Part shown: piece after piece, positions 3,869 to 10,722 of the stretch
Layout: each line of letters starts with the position of its first letter
Position numbering within the stretch: the first letter of the stretch is position 1
DNA from: Sphingomonas arenae
GTDB lineage: Bacteria > Pseudomonadota > Alphaproteobacteria > Sphingomonadales > Sphingomonadaceae
Assembly (NCBI RefSeq): GCF_016924655.1
Contig: NZ_JAFFJU010000002.1
Coordinates: 868,001 to 932,000 of the forward strand
DNA length: 64,000 nt
Reading direction: 5' to 3'
The notes under the pieces: model-generated
The model's database searches: none
What the model was told of the DNA's origin: nothing
Seen by the model: only the letters and a program-made list of their open reading frames with translations
Program-made: the position numbers and the translations under genes

Positions 3869-3872
<4 letters not shown>

Positions 3873-4903
3873 GGGCGCGGCTCTTCGGACTTCCGCTCGC
3901 CCTCGTCAACGTAGGGGAGCGGCACGAATAAGGTGTAGCTGAAGCCGTTCTTCCCGAAGTGCATCGCCGACTTGGCCTTGAGCTCATAGGCCAGCGTGCG
4001 CGTCAGCAGCTCGGTCCCGAAGCCGGTCCGTCGTGGCTTCCGCAAAGTGCGGCCGAGCTTGGTCTCCTTCCAGCTGAACCCGAGCACCCGCGACTCCGCT
4101 TCACCCGACAGTGACCAGCGGACCTCCAGTTCACCGGCGCGAGCACCCAGCACGCCATGCTTGACCGCGTTGGCGGACAGTTCGTGCACCGCCAGGCTGA
4201 TCCGCTCCGCCGTTCTGGGGTCGAGCAGCACGTCGGGCCCTTCCAGCACCAGCGAGCGCCCTTCCTGCGCGCCATGGGCGAGGAGCTCGTCCTGCGCGAT
4301 CTCCCGCAGCGACACCCCCGCGTCTGGAGCGCGCGTAACCAGGGCCTGCACCCGCGCAAAGGCGGCGAGGCGCCCGTCGAGATGGGTCGAAAACTCCCGA
4401 ACGTCACGCGACCGCTCCGCAGTCCGCCGCGCGATCGAGCGCACCACGCCAAGCGTGTTGCGGACCCGGTGCTGGAGTTCGGCCAGCAGAAGCCTGGCCC
4501 TTTCCTCGCTTTGCGCCAATGCCTCCAGGGCGCTCTTTTCCTCGGTGATGTCCCGGGCGATGCCGGCGATGGCCTGGACCTTCCCGTCCGACCCGAACAG
4601 GGGAAAGCCCTTGTCCCGGATCCAGCGGACCGCTCCATCGCTCGGGCGGATGATGCGGTAATCGATCTGGACGACCTCACCCTGTTCGGACCGCGGGAGC
4701 GCAGACAGGGCGATCCCAAGATCATCGGGATGGACCAGCGCGGCCCACTGATCCCGATCAAAGCCCTTCCCCGCCGGCATGCCGAACATCGCCTCGAAAG
4801 TTGGGCTGAGGTAAGCCATCGTGCCGGGAGGTTCCTGCAGCCACAACGTGTTGTCGGAATGCGCCGCAAATTCGGTGAACCACCTCTCCTCAGCTGTTGG
4901 CAT
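3869..4903 (-). CDS. PAS-domain HWE-family sensor histidine kinase (cytoplasmic)
   Basis: The 344-residue protein has no membrane segment. Residues about 10-120 form a PAS/PAC sensor (TDITE-like linker read as [14 protein letters not shown]). A phosphoacceptor box follows with ELQHRVRNT, His145, and a C-terminal ATPase region containing the WKE motif and [10 protein letters not shown] typical of the HWE class. HWE kinases are common in alphaproteobacteria and often act on PhyR/EcfG general stress signalling or light sensing. The ATG at 4903 was chosen because GGAGGGG lies about 10 bases upstream and the PAS region begins just after it; it overlaps the crp end by 14 bases. No response regulator is adjacent, so its partner is unknown. 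Confidence 0.87.
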
Positions 4904-5600
4904 CGAACTGGGACCCCTCCTGGCCCAAATGCAGGTACTCGGGCGTGAACAGCGCAACGTCCTTGAGGCGCGGGAGGTCCGGAATCGTCAGCCGACGACT
5001 TCCAAGCGAAATGAGCCCCGCCCGCCGAAGGTCCTGCAGGGTGCGGTTGACGTGCACGGACGTCAGCCCGGTGATGTCCGCCAGATCGTTCTGCACGATC
5101 GGGAAATCGCAACTGTCACCCTGGGTCATCCCAAGCGCTTCCAGTCGAACAAAGGTCTCGCACAGGAAATGGGCGATCCGCTCGAACGCGCTGCGCTGGC
5201 CTAGGTTGAGCGTCCATTCGCGCTGGATCGCAGCGCCGACCAGTTCCATCCACCAGAACGCCCGGCAGAGCCGGGTCGAATGGTCGAGCGCGGGCTCCAG
5301 TCTCTCTCGCGTGACTTCCGCCACGCGCATCCGGGTCAGTGCGTGAATACCGTGGTCCGTGCGCCGAAGCACGTAATTGTGCGCGTCGCAGACATCGCCC
5401 GGTAGGATCAGCCCGACGATCTGACGGCGACCGTCCTCAAGCATCTTCGTCCGGACGGCCCATCCTTCCTGGATGACGAGCACGTGCCGTGGCGGATCCC
5501 CTTCAAGAACCAGGTCTCGACGTGGCGCGACCCGGCGCGACGACCCGGCTGCAAGCTCATGGAGAAGCTGCCGCTCCTCCTCGGAGAGACGCGTGTACAA
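4890..5600 (-). CDS. Crp/Fnr-family transcriptional regulator
   Basis: The protein has an N-terminal cyclic-nucleotide-binding-type beta roll (LEGDPPRHVLVIQEGWAV, then GLILPGDV) and a C-terminal winged helix with recognition helix DLADITGLTSVHVNRTLQDL. It lacks the N-terminal cysteine cluster of true Fnr, so it is not expected to carry an oxygen-sensing iron-sulfur centre. The TTG at 5600 is the first conventional start; however an AGGAGGGG stands six bases before an in-frame CTG at 5630, and the extra residues (ALIRKVEL) resemble the usual N-terminus of this family, so 4890-5630 may be the real gene. It overlaps the kinase gene and probably heads its operon. Confidence 0.85.
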   Translation of the reverse strand: MYTRLSEEERQLLHELAAGSSRRVAPRRDLVLEGDPPRHVLVIQEGWAVRTKMLEDGRRQIVGLILPGDVCDAHNYVLRRTDHGIHALTRMRVAEVTRERLEPALDHSTRLCRAFWWMELVGAAIQREWTLNLGQRSAFERIAHFLCETFVRLEALGMTQGDSCDFPIVQNDLADITGLTSVHVNRTLQDLRRAGLISLGSRRLTIPDLPRLKDVALFTPEYLHLGQEGSQFDANS

Positions 5601-5812: not shown

Positions 5813-6001
5813 ATGACTGACACGCACCGGACCCCTGCCAAACGCGGGTTCGCAGCGATGGACCCGCAACGACAGCGCGAGATCGCCAGCAAGGGCGGAA
5901 AGTGCAGCGGAGGCAATTTCGCGAACAATCGTGAACGCGCGGCTGAGGCCGGCCGTGAGGGTGGCCGCGCAAGTCGTCACCGCGAAACTGCGCACGCCTG
6001 A
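5813..6001 (+). CDS. KGG-repeat stress protein (Con-10/GsiB-like)
   Basis: A 62-residue, very hydrophilic protein containing the stress-induced KGG signature: RGFAAMDPQRQREIASKGG, then GGNFANN and AAEAGREGGRAS. Proteins of this class are induced by general stress or desiccation in many bacteria and are thought to be disordered. The ATG at 5813 was preferred because GGGAGG lies upstream; an earlier in-frame ATG at 5738 would add 25 residues of no recognised character. It stands between the crp/kinase operon (divergent) and the sugar-enzyme fusions. An 11-bp perfect hairpin follows the stop. Confidence 0.82.
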   Translation: MTDTHRTPAKRGFAAMDPQRQREIASKGGKCSGGNFANNRERAAEAGREGGRASRHRETAHA

Positions 6002-6100: not shown

Positions 6101-6129
6101 AATGGAACCCGAATCGGGGTTTCATTGTT
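6101..6129 (+). promoter_or_regulatory. Leader hairpin and possible sigma-EcfG promoter upstream of the UGM fusion
   Basis: AATGGAACCC (6101-6110) and GGGTTTCATT (6117-6126) form a ten-pair stem with one G-T pair. The same bases contain GGAAC (6104-6108), then 17 bases, then TGTT (6126-6129), close to the alphaproteobacterial EcfG consensus GGAAC-N16/17-CGTT but with one mismatch in the -10. A start near 6136 would leave a leader of about 34 bases before the ATG at 6170. Both readings are tentative. Confidence 0.3.
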
Positions 6130-6169: not shown

Positions 6170-8545
6170 ATGTTCGAGAATGTCGGCGTGCGTGGTGAAG
6201 GCAGTTCTTCTGTTCCGACATCCTCGACCAAGCCTATGACCCTGATTTGTTTTTCGCACCTGCGGTGGGACTTCGTGTTTCAGCGGCCGCAGCATCTGAT
6301 GAGCCGGTTTGGCCAGTCCATGCCCGTGGTCATCTGGGAAGAGCCTGTGGCGGCTGCGGCTGGCGAGGGCCCGTCCCTGGACGTCCGCCCGGCGAAGAAC
6401 ATTGCCAACGTAACGGTCGTGACTCCACGCCTGCCCGCGGGCCTCGACGCCAAGGCGCAGCAGACGATCCTCAAGGGCCTGCTGGACGGGCACGTCGCAA
6501 CTCTGCCCGGGCGGTTTGTGCGCTGGTATTATACGCCGATGATGCTGCCCTTCTCGCGGCATCTCGACGCAATTGCGACCGTGTACGACTGCATGGACGA
6601 GCTGTCCGCTTTTCGTTTCGCGCCGACGGAACTGCTGCAGCTGGAGCAGGAACTGCTCGACGCGGCCGACCTGGTCTTCACGGGCGGCTATTCGCTGTAC
6701 GAAGCGAAGAAGAAGCGCCACGGCAACGTGCATCCTTTCCCATCATCCGTCGATCGGCGGCACTTCGCCAAGGCGCGGGAGGGAGATCGATCGCCCGCCG
6801 ACCAGGCCAGCATTCCGCGTCCGCGGTTCGGCTTTTACGGCGTCATAGACGAGCGCATCGATCTCGACCTGCTTGCAGCGGTCGCCGACGCGCGCCCCGA
6901 CTGGCAGCTCGTAATGGTCGGTCCGGTCGTGAAGATCAGCGAGGACGACCTCCCCCGCCGCGACAACATCCATTACCTCGGCGGCAAGAGCTACGACGAG
7001 CTGCCGACCTACCTGTCGGGCTGGGACGTGGCGCTGATGCCGTTCGCCATCAACGAGGCGACGCGCTTCATCTCGCCCACGAAGACCCCGGAGTATCTGG
7101 CGGGCGGCCGCCCGGTGGTCTCGACGCCGATCAAGGACGTGAAGCGCCACTACGAGAAGGTAGCCGGCGTGCGCATCGCCGGCACGGCCGAGCAGTTCAT
7201 TGCCGGTTGCGATGCGCAGCTCGCACTCGTTCGCTCAGGCGACGACTGGCTCGCCGAGGTCGATCTGCTGCTCGCCGACATGAGCTGGGACACGACCCAG
7301 GCGCGCATGGCCGCGCTGCTGGCAGAAGTCACCGAACAGGGCCAGAAGATCGAGCGCCCCGCCTTCGGCAAGGGCCAATACACTCACGTGCCGCGCGCCA
7401 GGAAGTACGATTACCTGATCGTCGGCTGCGGCTTCGCGGGCTCCGTCCTGGCCGAGCGTCTTGCATCCCAGCATGGCGCCCGCGTGCTGATGCTGGACAA
7501 GCGCCCGCACGTCGCGGGCAACGCCTATGACGAACTCGATGCGAACGGCATCCTCTACCACAAGTACGGGCCGCACATCTTCCATGCGAACTCGGACGAG
7601 ATCGTCAGCTACCTGTCGCAATTCACCCAGTGGCGGCCTTACGAGCATCGGGTCCTTGCAAACGTGCGCGATCAGCTGGTGCCGATCCCCATCAATCGGA
7701 CCACGCTGAACAAGCTGTTCAACGCGGGCCTCAAGAACGACGAGGAGGCGGCCGCCTTCCTCGCTTCGCGCGCCGAACCGGTGGCGAACATCCGCACGTC
7801 GGAGGACGTGGTCATCAACGCCGTCGGGCGGGAGCTCTACGAGCTGTTCTTCCGTGGCTATACCCGCAAGCAGTGGGGCCTCGATCCGTCGGAGCTCGAC
7901 AAGCAGGTCACCAGCCGCATCCCGACGCGGACCAACACGGACGACCGCTACTTCACCGACAAGCACCAGATCATGCCGCTCCACGGCTACACGCGCATGT
8001 TCGAGAAGATGCTCGACCACCCGTTGATCGAGAAGTCGCTCGGGACCGACTACCGCGACGTCAAGGACGAGATCGACGCCGCTCACACCATCTACACGGG
8101 GCCGATCGACGAATATTTCGACTGGCGCTTCGGCAAGCTGCCGTACCGCTCGCTGCGGTTCGTCCACTCGACCATCGACAAGGAGCAGTTCCAGCCGGTG
8201 GCGGTGGTCAACTACCCGCACCCCGACGTGCCCTACACCCGCATCAGCGAGTACAAGCACATGACGGGCCAGGAGCACCCCAAGACCACGATCACGCTCG
8301 AATATCCGAGCGCGGAGGGCGACCCCTATTATCCGATCCCGCGGCCGGAAAACCAGGAGCTGTTCAAGAAGTACGAGGCGCTGGCCGACTCCACGGCGGG
8401 CGTGACCTTCGTCGGACGGCTCGCGACCTACCGCTACTACAACATGGATCAGATCGTCGGACAGGCGCTCGCCACCTTCCGGCGGATGGACGAGGATCGC
8501 CGCAAGATCGGGGCGGCCAGCAGGGAGCTGCGCCTGGCCATCTAG
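6170..8545 (+). CDS. Fusion of a glycosyltransferase (N-terminal) with UDP-galactopyranose mutase (C-terminal)
   Basis: The 791-residue protein joins two enzymes. Residues about 24-400 look like a GT-B glycosyltransferase: FSHLRWDFVFQRPQHL near the start, YDCMDELSAF, GFYGVIDERID, and a nucleotide-sugar region with SPTKTPEYLAGGRPVVSTP. From about residue 411 comes a complete flavin-dependent UDP-galactopyranose mutase: IVGCGFAG dinucleotide-binding loop, LDKRPHVAGNAYDE, YGPHIFHAN, FFRGYTRKQWG, and GRLATYRYYNMDQ near the end. The mutase makes UDP-Galf from UDP-Galp, so the fused transferase could use galactofuranose, which is inference. ATG 6170 has CGAGG upstream; a TTG at 6125 is an alternative. 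The next fusion gene follows after 20 bases. Confidence 0.9.
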   Translation: MFENVGVRGEGSSSVPTSSTKPMTLICFSHLRWDFVFQRPQHLMSRFGQSMPVVIWEEPVAAAAGEGPSLDVRPAKNIANVTVVTPRLPAGLDAKAQQTILKGLLDGHVATLPGRFVRWYYTPMMLPFSRHLDAIATVYDCMDELSAFRFAPTELLQLEQELLDAADLVFTGGYSLYEAKKKRHGNVHPFPSSVDRRHFAKAREGDRSPADQASIPRPRFGFYGVIDERIDLDLLAAVADARPDWQLVMVGPVVKISEDDLPRRDNIHYLGGKSYDELPTYLSGWDVALMPFAINEATRFISPTKTPEYLAGGRPVVSTPIKDVKRHYEKVAGVRIAGTAEQFIAGCDAQLALVRSGDDWLAEVDLLLADMSWDTTQARMAALLAEVTEQGQKIERPAFGKGQYTHVPRARKYDYLIVGCGFAGSVLAERLASQHGARVLMLDKRPHVAGNAYDELDANGILYHKYGPHIFHANSDEIVSYLSQFTQWRPYEHRVLANVRDQLVPIPINRTTLNKLFNAGLKNDEEAAAFLASRAEPVANIRTSEDVVINAVGRELYELFFRGYTRKQWGLDPSELDKQVTSRIPTRTNTDDRYFTDKHQIMPLHGYTRMFEKMLDHPLIEKSLGTDYRDVKDEIDAAHTIYTGPIDEYFDWRFGKLPYRSLRFVHSTIDKEQFQPVAVVNYPHPDVPYTRISEYKHMTGQEHPKTTITLEYPSAEGDPYYPIPRPENQELFKKYEALADSTAGVTFVGRLATYRYYNMDQIVGQALATFRRMDEDRRKIGAASRELRLAI

Positions 8546-8565
8546 GCCAGGACAGTGGAACAGGA

Positions 8566-10722
8566 ATGACCGAACCGACAAACCAGCACCCCCCGCTCCA
8601 GCTATGGGGCGGGGTGGAGTGCACCGTCGTGCGCCTCGGCGACGACTATCGCGACCAGGTTGTCGAAACCGGCCACGCCCATCGATTGGCGGATCTCGAT
8701 GCCATCGCCGAATTGGGCATCAAGACTGTCCGCTATCCGATTGTGTGGGAGCGGGTCGCTCCCGACAGTCCCGAGCAGCTGGACTTCAGCTGGCACGACG
8801 AGCGGCTCCGGCGGCTTCGGGATCTGGGAATCAAGGTCATCGGCGGACTGGTTCACCATGGCTCAGGGCCGCGCTACACCAGCCTGCTCGATCCTGGCTT
8901 CGGCCGGAAGCTCGCCGACTATGCCGCCATTGTCGCCGAGCGTTACCCGTGGATCGACATGTGGACGCCGGTCAACGAGCCCTTGACCACGGCCCGCTTC
9001 GCGTGCCTCTATGGCCATTGGTATCCGCACACGCGCGACCTCGCCAAGACCATGCAGGCGCTGGTCAACGAGTGCGAAGCTTCGCTGCTCGCTATGCGCG
9101 CCATCCGCGCCGTGAACCCGGGCGCGCTGCACGTCACGACGGAGGACCTCGGCAAGACGTTCGCCACTCCAAAGCTTGCGTATCAGGCGCGGCACGAGAA
9201 TGAGCGGCGCTGGCTCAGCCTGGATCTCCTCACCGGCCGGGTCGATGAACGGCACAGCTTCTGGAAGCTGCTGAGCAAGGCTAAGGTTCCCGCGGTAAAG
9301 CTGCAGGCCTTGATGAGCGGCGAAGCAGCGCCCGACATCGTCGGCATCAACCATTACCTCACCAGCGAGCGCTACCTGGACGAGCGCCTGGCCCGCTACC
9401 CTCAGGTGGCGCCCGGCTCCAACGGGCGCCACCGCTACGTCGACCTCGAGGCAGTGCGCATGCCGCATCTTGCCGGCAAAACGGGTCCAACCGCCCGCCT
9501 GCGCGAAGCGTGGAAGCGCTATGGCATTCCCCTCGCCATCACCGAAGTCCATCACGGCTGCACCCGCGAGGAGCAGGTCCGCTGGTTCCACGAAGTCTGG
9601 CAGGCTGCGGAGAAGGTGCGCGGCGAGGGCGTCGACTTGCGGGCCGTGACCCTCTGGTCGCTGTTCGGCAACGTCGACTGGCGCTCGCTGCTGACCCGGC
9701 GCGAGGGCATCTATGATGTCGGTGCCTTCGATACGCGCGGCGGCAAGCTCCGCCCGACCATGGTCGCCAAAGCGGCCGCCAGCCTCGCCAAGGGGCAGCT
9801 GCTCCAGCATCCCGCCATGCAGGGCCGTCCCTGGTGGCGCCGGCCCGAGCGCTTCACGGTCGGCGCAAGCTCCTGCAAACCGCACCACCTCGGGAGGCAT
9901 CCCTTGCTGATCACCGGCGCGACCGGCACGCTCGGTCAGGCATTCGGCCGCATCTGCCATCATCGCGGCCTCGCCCATGTGGTCACGGACCGGCAGGCCA
10001 TGGACATCACGGATGCGGCGAGCATCGAGGCGGCACTCGATCGGCTCCAACCCTGGGCCGTTATCAACACTGCCGGCTTCGTCCGCGTGCCGGAGGCGGA
10101 GCACCAGCCCGACGATTGCTTCCGCATCAACACCACCGGCGCCGAGTTGCTTGCCGCCGCCTGTCACAAGCGCGGCATCCCTTTCGTTACCTTCTCCTCT
10201 GACCTGGTGTTCGACGGCAAGCTCGGGCGCCCCTATGTCGAGCCTGACCCGACCAGCCCCGCGTGCGTCTATGGGGAGAGCAAGGCCCAGGCCGAGGACA
10301 GGGTGATGGCCATGGATCCGCAGGCGCTCATTGTCCGAACCAGCGCCTTCTTCGGACCTTGGGACCGCTTCAATTTCCTCTGGGGCACGCTCGATCGGCT
10401 GACCAGGGGTGAGGAGGTCCACGCCAGCGACAATGCGGTGGTCTCACCGACCTACGTTCCGGACCTGGTCCATGCCACGCTGGACCTGCTGCTGGACGGC
10501 GAGACTGGGCTCTGGCACCTCGCCAACGAGGGCAGCATCAGCTGGCACGGCCTCGCCCGCGAGATGGCCGACCGCGCTGGCCTGTCGCCCAAGAAGATCC
10601 GCAATAGCGGCGGCGACAAGGCGGATAACACGCTTGGCACCAGCCGAGGCCAGATCCTCCGCCCGCTCGGCCGGGCACTCGAGGACTTCATGCTCCACGC
10701 GGAGGCACTGCCGGGGCGGTGA
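8566..10722 (+). CDS. Fusion of a family-1 glycosidase-like domain with an RmlD-like sugar-nucleotide reductase
   Basis: The 718-residue protein has two domains. Residues about 10-410 resemble GH1: the acid/base Glu138 lies in TPVNEP and the candidate nucleophile Glu327 in AITEVHHG, where classical GH1 has ITENG. From about residue 446 an extended short-chain dehydrogenase begins (LLITGATGTLGQAF), with VINTAGFVRV, FSSDLVFDG and the catalytic YGESK (Tyr569, Lys573), as in dTDP-4-dehydrorhamnose reductase. It follows the glycosyltransferase/UGM fusion by 20 bases in the same direction, so both probably build or trim one glycan. The true substrate of either domain is unknown. Confidence 0.88.
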   Translation: MTEPTNQHPPLQLWGGVECTVVRLGDDYRDQVVETGHAHRLADLDAIAELGIKTVRYPIVWERVAPDSPEQLDFSWHDERLRRLRDLGIKVIGGLVHHGSGPRYTSLLDPGFGRKLADYAAIVAERYPWIDMWTPVNEPLTTARFACLYGHWYPHTRDLAKTMQALVNECEASLLAMRAIRAVNPGALHVTTEDLGKTFATPKLAYQARHENERRWLSLDLLTGRVDERHSFWKLLSKAKVPAVKLQALMSGEAAPDIVGINHYLTSERYLDERLARYPQVAPGSNGRHRYVDLEAVRMPHLAGKTGPTARLREAWKRYGIPLAITEVHHGCTREEQVRWFHEVWQAAEKVRGEGVDLRAVTLWSLFGNVDWRSLLTRREGIYDVGAFDTRGGKLRPTMVAKAAASLAKGQLLQHPAMQGRPWWRRPERFTVGASSCKPHHLGRHPLLITGATGTLGQAFGRICHHRGLAHVVTDRQAMDITDAASIEAALDRLQPWAVINTAGFVRVPEAEHQPDDCFRINTTGAELLAAACHKRGIPFVTFSSDLVFDGKLGRPYVEPDPTSPACVYGESKAQAEDRVMAMDPQALIVRTSAFFGPWDRFNFLWGTLDRLTRGEEVHASDNAVVSPTYVPDLVHATLDLLLDGETGLWHLANEGSISWHGLAREMADRAGLSPKKIRNSGGDKADNTLGTSRGQILRPLGRALEDFMLHAEALPGR

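Follow-up and report, generated by a model that had tools for sequence, protein, structure and literature searches.

What might two consecutive fusion genes for sugar enzymes make in Sphingomonas arenae? The window analysed here, a stretch of 64,000 nucleotides (contig NZ_JAFFJU010000002.1, positions 868,001 to 932,000), contains gene 1, encoding a glycosyltransferase (GT) fused to a UDP-galactopyranose mutase (UGM), followed after 20 bases on the same strand by gene 2, encoding a GH1-like glycosidase fused to an RmlD-like reductase. An initial annotation made from the sequence had described this arrangement, and the open reading frames and Pfam domains bear out both double fusions, their coordinates and the gap between them. 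It had further suggested that the four activities build one galactofuranose (Galf)-containing, stress-induced surface or small-molecule glycan. With moderate confidence, we favour a reading in which the two genes form the core of a conserved module that makes a Galf compound in the cytosol and is stress-induced in many Alphaproteobacteria.

The C-terminal half of gene 1 scores 384.3 bits with the UGM equivalog TIGR00031 over residues 412-771 (cut-off 303.75) and is thus placed among the UGMs, and Pfam recognises NAD_binding_8 (residues 417-484) and GLF (residues 560-756) within it. Its closest solved chain is 3hdq (541 bits, residues 409-774; 62-63% identity in the top matches), which we take to be, together with 3hdy, 3he3 and 3mj4, the UGM of Deinococcus radiodurans. 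The near-continuous alignment with 3hdq and a GxGxxG motif for flavin adenine dinucleotide binding, here GCGFAG at residues 419-424, agree with this membership. Six residues (R566, W569, R691, R750, Y756 and D760) are invariant across 24 aligned fusions, the window's included, and some of them are presumably catalytic. The N-terminal half matches PF13692 at residues 234-345 (33 bits, above the gathering threshold of 27) and the TuaH model with 72 bits, under its cut-off of 550. Foldseek matches for this half were MshA, sucrose-phosphate synthase and trehalose-6-phosphate synthase, all retaining GT-B enzymes; fold matching used the GT half only, as the AlphaFold2 model of gene 1 is poor over the UGM half (mean pLDDT 62.5).

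Judged by the scores of family and subtype models, both halves of gene 2 are divergent from their families. PF00232 is found at residues 37-390 (56.2 bits, gathering threshold 22.6), making the first half a member of GH1, and PF04321 at residues 447-679 (193 bits) together with a Rossmann motif and a YxxxK motif makes the second a member of the RmlD superfamily. The AlphaFold2 model (pLDDT 91.6) shows a GH1 fold and an RmlD fold, the latter matched by Foldseek to 1vl0 (TMt 0.88). In an alignment of 89 GH1-RmlD proteins both catalytic glutamates of GH1 are kept without exception, as are the first two glycines of the GxxGxLG Rossmann motif (the last in 87), and the reductase tyrosine and lysine are retained in 88 and 87 proteins, respectively. 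The residues around the GH1 catalytic set are altered: the His-Trp pair of β-glucosidases is replaced by His-His in all 89, and in the DNxEW stretch the aspartate is glycine in all 89 and the glutamate aspartate in 85, positions that presumably have a role in the GH1 sugar pocket. Together with a score of 68.3 bits against the cut-off of 478.5 of the β-glucosidase model TIGR03356, this altered pocket marks the GH1 half as a family member that is not a plain β-glucosidase, and its substrate is probably different from theirs. Neither the gene 1 nor the gene 2 protein has a strongly hydrophobic segment, which suggests that the chemistry of the pair is probably cytosolic and leaves the 'surface' glycan of the initial annotation unsupported; a crude test likewise gave no strongly hydrophobic N-terminus in 88 of the 89 GH1-RmlD proteins.

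Gene 2 has relatives in Alpha- and Betaproteobacteria, Cyanobacteria, Acidobacteriota, Chloroflexota, Deinococcus and Runella. Scanning genome contigs returned at least 575 confirmed relatives, and the viral contigs scanned gave no match. The best 80 of these loci formed our locus set, and fractions among them lean toward near relatives. GT and a bacterial-type UGM are held together in 49 of the 80 loci, fused in 24 of the 49 and on the same strand as gene 2 in 47; two further loci (L056 and L061) carry the GT fused to a eukaryotic-type UGM, described below. Many lineages have the GT and UGM unfused, as two genes side by side, and in D. aetherius separate GT and glf genes lie about 3 kb from the GH1-RmlD gene. 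As a less biased test, 249 genomes from the window's family were searched for both genes. Gene 2 was found in 24 and matches to gene 1 in 49, with all 24 lying within the 49 (hypergeometric probability 4e-20, genomes treated as independent). Every one of the 24 carries both GT and UGM, fused in 19 and as separate genes in 5. By coordinates, the genes are adjacent in 14 of these genomes (4 tandem, 8 divergent, 2 convergent), about 7 kb apart in one and elsewhere in nine, several of the assemblies being fragmented. The converse fails, with 25 of the 49 genomes lacking gene 2, and in 6 of the 49 only one half of gene 1 is among the matches listed. A sample of 337 genomes from across the class had gene 2 in three, the window genome included, all with GT and UGM matches. 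The idea that the two fusions travel together therefore holds when read from gene 2 to gene 1 and fails in the other direction, and the fused architecture is that of most, not all, family genomes with gene 2.

In order to follow the GT where it and a bacterial-type UGM had not both been found, gene 1 was searched in the genomes or records behind 25 loci, 22 of this kind and 3 controls, and the GT was present in all 25. In each of the eight betaproteobacterial genomes examined it is fused to another flavoprotein domain, whose solved-structure hits are UGMs throughout (14 of 14, 3ute, 3uka and 4dsg among them) and, as we understand these entries, of the eukaryotic kind, from fungi and trypanosomes. 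This domain has no significant BLASTP similarity to the window UGM (best E 0.03). Betaproteobacterial loci number 15; beyond the eight genomes searched for the fusion, L041, L042, L046, L062, L064 and L090 were left out, and Caballeronia (L015) has separate genes for the GT and a bacterial-type UGM. In a quick, midpoint-rooted GT tree the eight GTs with a eukaryotic-type partner group in a single branch (support 96) within the wider GT family. The bacterial-type fusion needs three changes on this tree and may thus have been gained or lost repeatedly. The separate joining of the same GT to two very different UGMs is the best evidence that this GT uses UDP-Galf, and it argues strongly for UDP-Galf as the probable donor. 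Along with the equivalog score of the window UGM, it lends support to the galactofuranose theme of the initial annotation.

Upstream of gene 1 we observed an EcfG-type promoter-like site, of a form (GGAAC-N17-20-GTT) given for Sphingomonas melonis in the accessible part of PMC6599016. Across loci, we counted GGAAC-N15-19-[CT]GTT within about 330 bp upstream and took the expectation from random windows of the same loci. Of 71 alphaproteobacterial GT cases, 42 have the motif (1.5 expected) and 3 its reversed form; of 43 others, none has it (0.5 expected). These counts were taken after removal of duplicates from 72 and 44 GTs, with L153 and L154 dropped as copies of L056 and L061, L023 counted as alphaproteobacterial by similarity and L057 as non-alphaproteobacterial. 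Dereplication at 90%, in counts that still held duplicates, left 36 of 64 alphaproteobacterial GTs with the motif (1.2 expected, 3 reversed) and 0 of 38 others, and the family sample alone gave 16 of 36 (0.6 expected, 2 reversed). Motif-bearing loci come from Sphingomonadaceae, Microvirga, Methylocystis, Beijerinckiaceae and Azospirillum. According to the part of PMC3892343 available to us, EcfG is confined to Alphaproteobacteria, and NepR, the general stress anti-sigma factor, was found in the window's genome. The counts indicate a putative EcfG-type promoter that is conserved upstream of the GT, and EcfG would accordingly be expected, on sequence grounds, to control the module in many Alphaproteobacteria. 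The stress link of the initial annotation stands in this form, not in its original one, which leaned on the neighbouring KGG, HWE kinase and Crp genes; as proof of stress control these neighbours were set aside for the promoter test. A table in the accessible portion of PMC6599016 lists two neighbouring genes of S. melonis Fr1, 1750 ('Glycosyltransferase') and 1751 ('Glycosidases'), as EcfG dependent. They may or may not be the pair, and they were not counted as such because 'Glycosidases' usually denotes the alpha-amylase group.

Domains, conserved catalytic residues, co-inheritance, the GT with its two distantly related UGM types and the promoter enrichment can be brought together in one route with a joint product. 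The UGM domain would convert UDP-galactopyranose to UDP-Galf and pass it to the fused retaining GT, which would place Galf onto an acceptor. The GH1 half, with its catalytic set complete and its pocket altered, may trim the Galf product or a precursor, or transfer sugar on it, and the RmlD half may reduce a keto-sugar nucleotide or an oxidised sugar in the same route. Transcription from the EcfG-type promoter would, in many Alphaproteobacteria, bring the module into the general stress response. The substrates proposed for the GH1 and RmlD halves are guesses, as is the role of the product as a protective glycolipid or small glycoside. More tentatively, and to our mind doubtfully, the product could be a galactofuranoside, intracellular or lipid-bound, that protects against stress, is made by a GT fused separately to two distantly related UGM lineages and is edited by GH1-RmlD. 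This galactofuranoside would be a shared, as yet unnamed component of the general stress response of Alphaproteobacteria, with counterparts in desert-crust cyanobacteria and Deinococcus.

A number of observations weigh against this reading. The reductase half scores 191.8 bits with the rhamnose-enzyme model TIGR01214 (cut-off 224.05), below the level of a dTDP-4-dehydrorhamnose reductase; four of the 24 family genomes (G029, G110, G171 and G182) have it in shortened form, and Ensifer and Mesorhizobium plasmids hold GT, UGM and GH1 in a row with a GH1 match lacking RmlD, because of which RmlD is the least essential piece of the module. The eukaryotic-type domain is a distant UGM homologue (about 170 bits), so that it is a predicted rather than an assured UDP-galactopyranose mutase. 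With regard to the promoter, 29 of the 71 alphaproteobacterial GT cases are without the strict motif, the motif count in the window alone is at chance (3 against 3.07 expected), and over the whole genome the strict form GGAAC-N16-17-CGTT shows no enrichment (27, with 55 for the reversed control). Upstream of GH1 the motif is found in 9 of 62 alphaproteobacterial cases (1.3 expected), mostly where gene 2 does not follow the GT, and in 2 of 56 others (0.8 expected). The -10 element of the window site is TGTT, off the optimum of Sphingopyxis, for which the accessible text of PMC7083833 reports that one-base changes of the CGTT box (CATT, TGTT) lowered transcription. In the parts of PMC6599016, PMC7083833, PMC6180224 and PMC3892343 that were accessible, we found no mention of the pair as an EcfG regulon member or of its dependence on ecfG or phyR. 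Finally, an ABC-transporter ATPase cluster in 8 of 88 loci makes export conceivable, and our searches of the open-access literature gave no report of Galf in these bacteria.

If the pair were loose parts of an ordinary surface polysaccharide pathway of the capsule or O-antigen type, with the other genes elsewhere, its fusions would be nothing special. UGM genes usually serve surface glycans, and both the transporter cluster just mentioned and a Sinorhizobium meliloti plasmid on which the GT-UGM fusion is followed by two more glycosyltransferase genes fit such a pathway. We nevertheless regard it as unlikely, given that neither flippase nor polymerase is found among the Pfam-annotated neighbour clusters (46 clusters recur in at least 4 loci, most of them unannotated), that the recurring sugar set in several phyla consists of GT, UGM, GH1-RmlD, GH2 and gal genes, and that the crude test of N-termini points away from the surface. 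The recurrence of GH2 and gal genes speaks for a salvage route for galactose or Galf, in which GH1 and GH2 would free the sugar, GalK, GalT and GalE would turn it into UDP-Gal and the UGM-GT would only store it. With genes of the loci named from protein clusters, and Pfam run on one or two members per named cluster, GH2 is found in 35 of the 80 loci, galT, galK or galE in 22 and both in 12, and the invariant catalytic glutamates of GH1 would suit this role. Yet salvage appears very unlikely, since none of the 30 alphaproteobacterial loci has a gal gene, although 12 of them, all Microvirga, have GH2, since GT and UGM accompany gene 2 in every family genome that has it, and since enrichment of the stress motif is stronger at the GT than at GH1.

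The remaining two alternatives concern the donor and the promoter. The GT might not use UDP-Galf at all, the fusion merely tying the expression or stability of UGM to an unrelated transferase. In favour of this, no GT-B enzyme of this branch with an established donor was available here, and GT copies occur without a UGM beside them in L013, L016 and L092. Of these three solo cases, however, two come from records or genomes with a UGM at another place, and the search for the third, Runella L016, covered a 38 kb plasmid only; the unfused GT often adjoins a UGM, and one GT family was joined to two UGM types that BLASTP does not relate. We consider an unrelated transferase quite improbable. An EcfG-like motif that arose by chance or was inherited as neutral sequence, with a module outside stress control, would agree with the chance-level count in the window and the alphaproteobacterial cases that have no motif, and related loci are not independent. 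Against this stand the dereplicated counts, with few reversed motifs in Alphaproteobacteria and no motif elsewhere, the restriction of EcfG to Alphaproteobacteria (PMC3892343, as far as accessible) and the spread of the motif over the five groups named above, and we consider this explanation as improbable as salvage. The cytosolic, stress-induced Galf module therefore remains the reading we prefer.

The GH2 and gal neighbours also speak for a Galf module. Queried from a cyanobacterium, a betaproteobacterium and Microvirga, the GH2 proteins gave 7xyr, 7sf2 and 9j6m/n as top entries in the PDB, with a large lead for the cyanobacterial and betaproteobacterial enzymes and 160-168 against 112 bits for that of Microvirga. 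The accessible part of PMC12243196 places 9J6M in GH2_18 and 7XYR in GH2_19, both furanose-active subfamilies; in that part 7SF2 is not named, and 7XYR itself is given as uncharacterised and without the usual NE motif. In the three queried species the GH2 neighbours thus look like GH2_18/19 furanosidases, a predicted activity. In one run at Noviherbaspirillum suwonense L061 (4057-14549) the fusion of GT and eukaryotic-type UGM, GH1-RmlD, galT, an M24 peptidase gene, galK and GH2 stand together, and L055 and L073 hold gal-GH2 sets that resemble it.

In bacteria, the rare ring form galactofuranose is known chiefly from polysaccharides of the cell surface and from the wall of mycobacteria. In the mycobacterial GlfT1/GlfT2 and Kingella kingae pam pathways, UGM and galactofuranosyltransferase are separate and the products are cell-surface galactans. 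The feeding of a Galf transferase by UGM would be common to those pathways (PMC10951656 and PMC12269835, in their accessible parts) and the present module, whereas here there are one GT, a fused GH1-RmlD partner and a putative stress promoter. The individual enzymes differ in a similar manner from their known relatives: solved UGMs such as 3hdq are stand-alone proteins, whereas the window domain is fused to a GT; gene 2 shares the TIM barrel and both catalytic glutamates with GH1 β-glucosidases, but only about 17-23% identity, and is fused to a reductase and probably cytosolic; and it shares the fold, the Rossmann motif and YxxxK with RmlD dTDP-4-dehydrorhamnose reductases but falls under the TIGR01214 cut-off and is fused to GH1. 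The region upstream of gene 1 has the motif form of the PhyR-NepR-EcfG regulon, and relatives of GH2_18/GH2_19 furanosidases adjoin the module in other species. No description of a gene 1/gene 2 module was found among the papers listed by our searches of open-access literature, which lacks most subscription papers. The enzyme families are known, and the module itself, as a form of Galf biosynthesis, is apparently undescribed. If the reading is correct, a compact Galf module spread across several phyla and, in Alphaproteobacteria, linked to the general stress response would point to a new role of galactofuranose in stress survival, offer a pathway to which the solved UGM of Deinococcus may belong, and provide a new candidate branch of galactofuranosyltransferases and a GH1-RmlD enzyme whose reaction is open to direct testing.

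Table 1. Features of the pair and its surroundings, in window coordinates.
Feature	Position	Strand	Details
Gene 1, glycosyltransferase-UDP-galactopyranose mutase fusion	6170..8545	+	ATG 6170, stop 8545, 791 aa
GT domain, retaining GT-B fold, TuaH/MshA-like	6230..7369, about aa 21-400	+	Pfam, curated model, Foldseek
UGM domain with FAD motif GCGFAG	7403..8491, aa 412-774	+	TIGR00031, 3hdq
Gene 2, GH1-like glycosidase-RmlD-like reductase fusion	8566..10722	+	ATG 8566, stop 10722, 718 aa
GH1 domain, Glu138 (NEP) and Glu327 (TEV) invariant	8605..9765, about aa 14-400	+	Alignment
RmlD-like domain, Tyr569 and Lys573 of YxxxK	9904..10602, aa 447-679	+	Pfam, alignment, Foldseek
EcfG-type promoter-like site, GGAAC-N18-GTT	6104..6129	+	40 nt before gene 1 start codon
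KGG-repeat stress protein, neighbour, not established as module member	5813..6001	+	PF10685, 64 bits
Crp-type regulator, neighbour	4890..5600	-	PF13545 and PF00027
PAS-HWE histidine kinase, neighbour	3869..4957	-	PF07536, 73.7 bits (scanned as 3869-4912)

Twelve genes of the window were scanned by Pfam, which confirmed the identities given to the KGG, HWE kinase and Crp neighbours by the initial annotation; among these twelve there was no rmlA, rmlB or rmlC, no GH2 gene and no export gene. Among these three neighbours, conservation is established for the Crp-like regulator only, which falls into a cluster with open reading frames near GH1-RmlD at three other loci (L026, L050 and L069). In S. 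yanoikuyae (L100) a Crp regulator and histidine kinases also lie nearby.

Variation in the genes themselves was seen at several loci. Two GH1-RmlD copies are present in some genomes, namely Azospirillum thermophilum, a filamentous cyanobacterium and Microvirga sp. BSC39 (L013, L085, L033 and L050). On a plasmid of S. daechungensis (L010, 5581-10135) each gene is in two pieces, by disruption or assembly error. The S. meliloti plasmid locus (L017, 8097-15846) has the two long glycosyltransferase genes directly after its GT-UGM fusion; GH1-RmlD is missing from the part of the plasmid displayed, and the fusion here serves as the basis of another module. GH43 genes and PhyH-type dioxygenase genes lie near the module in the cyanobacterial loci L083, L076, L086, L088 and L094; as module parts, the GH43, M24 and PhyH neighbours in cyanobacteria were rejected for want of a clear link. 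A YflT-type heat-stress protein cluster is common to five loci (L059, L060, L070, L091 and L092), and mechanosensitive channel genes are found near the module in betaproteobacterial and Microvirga loci (L048, L031).

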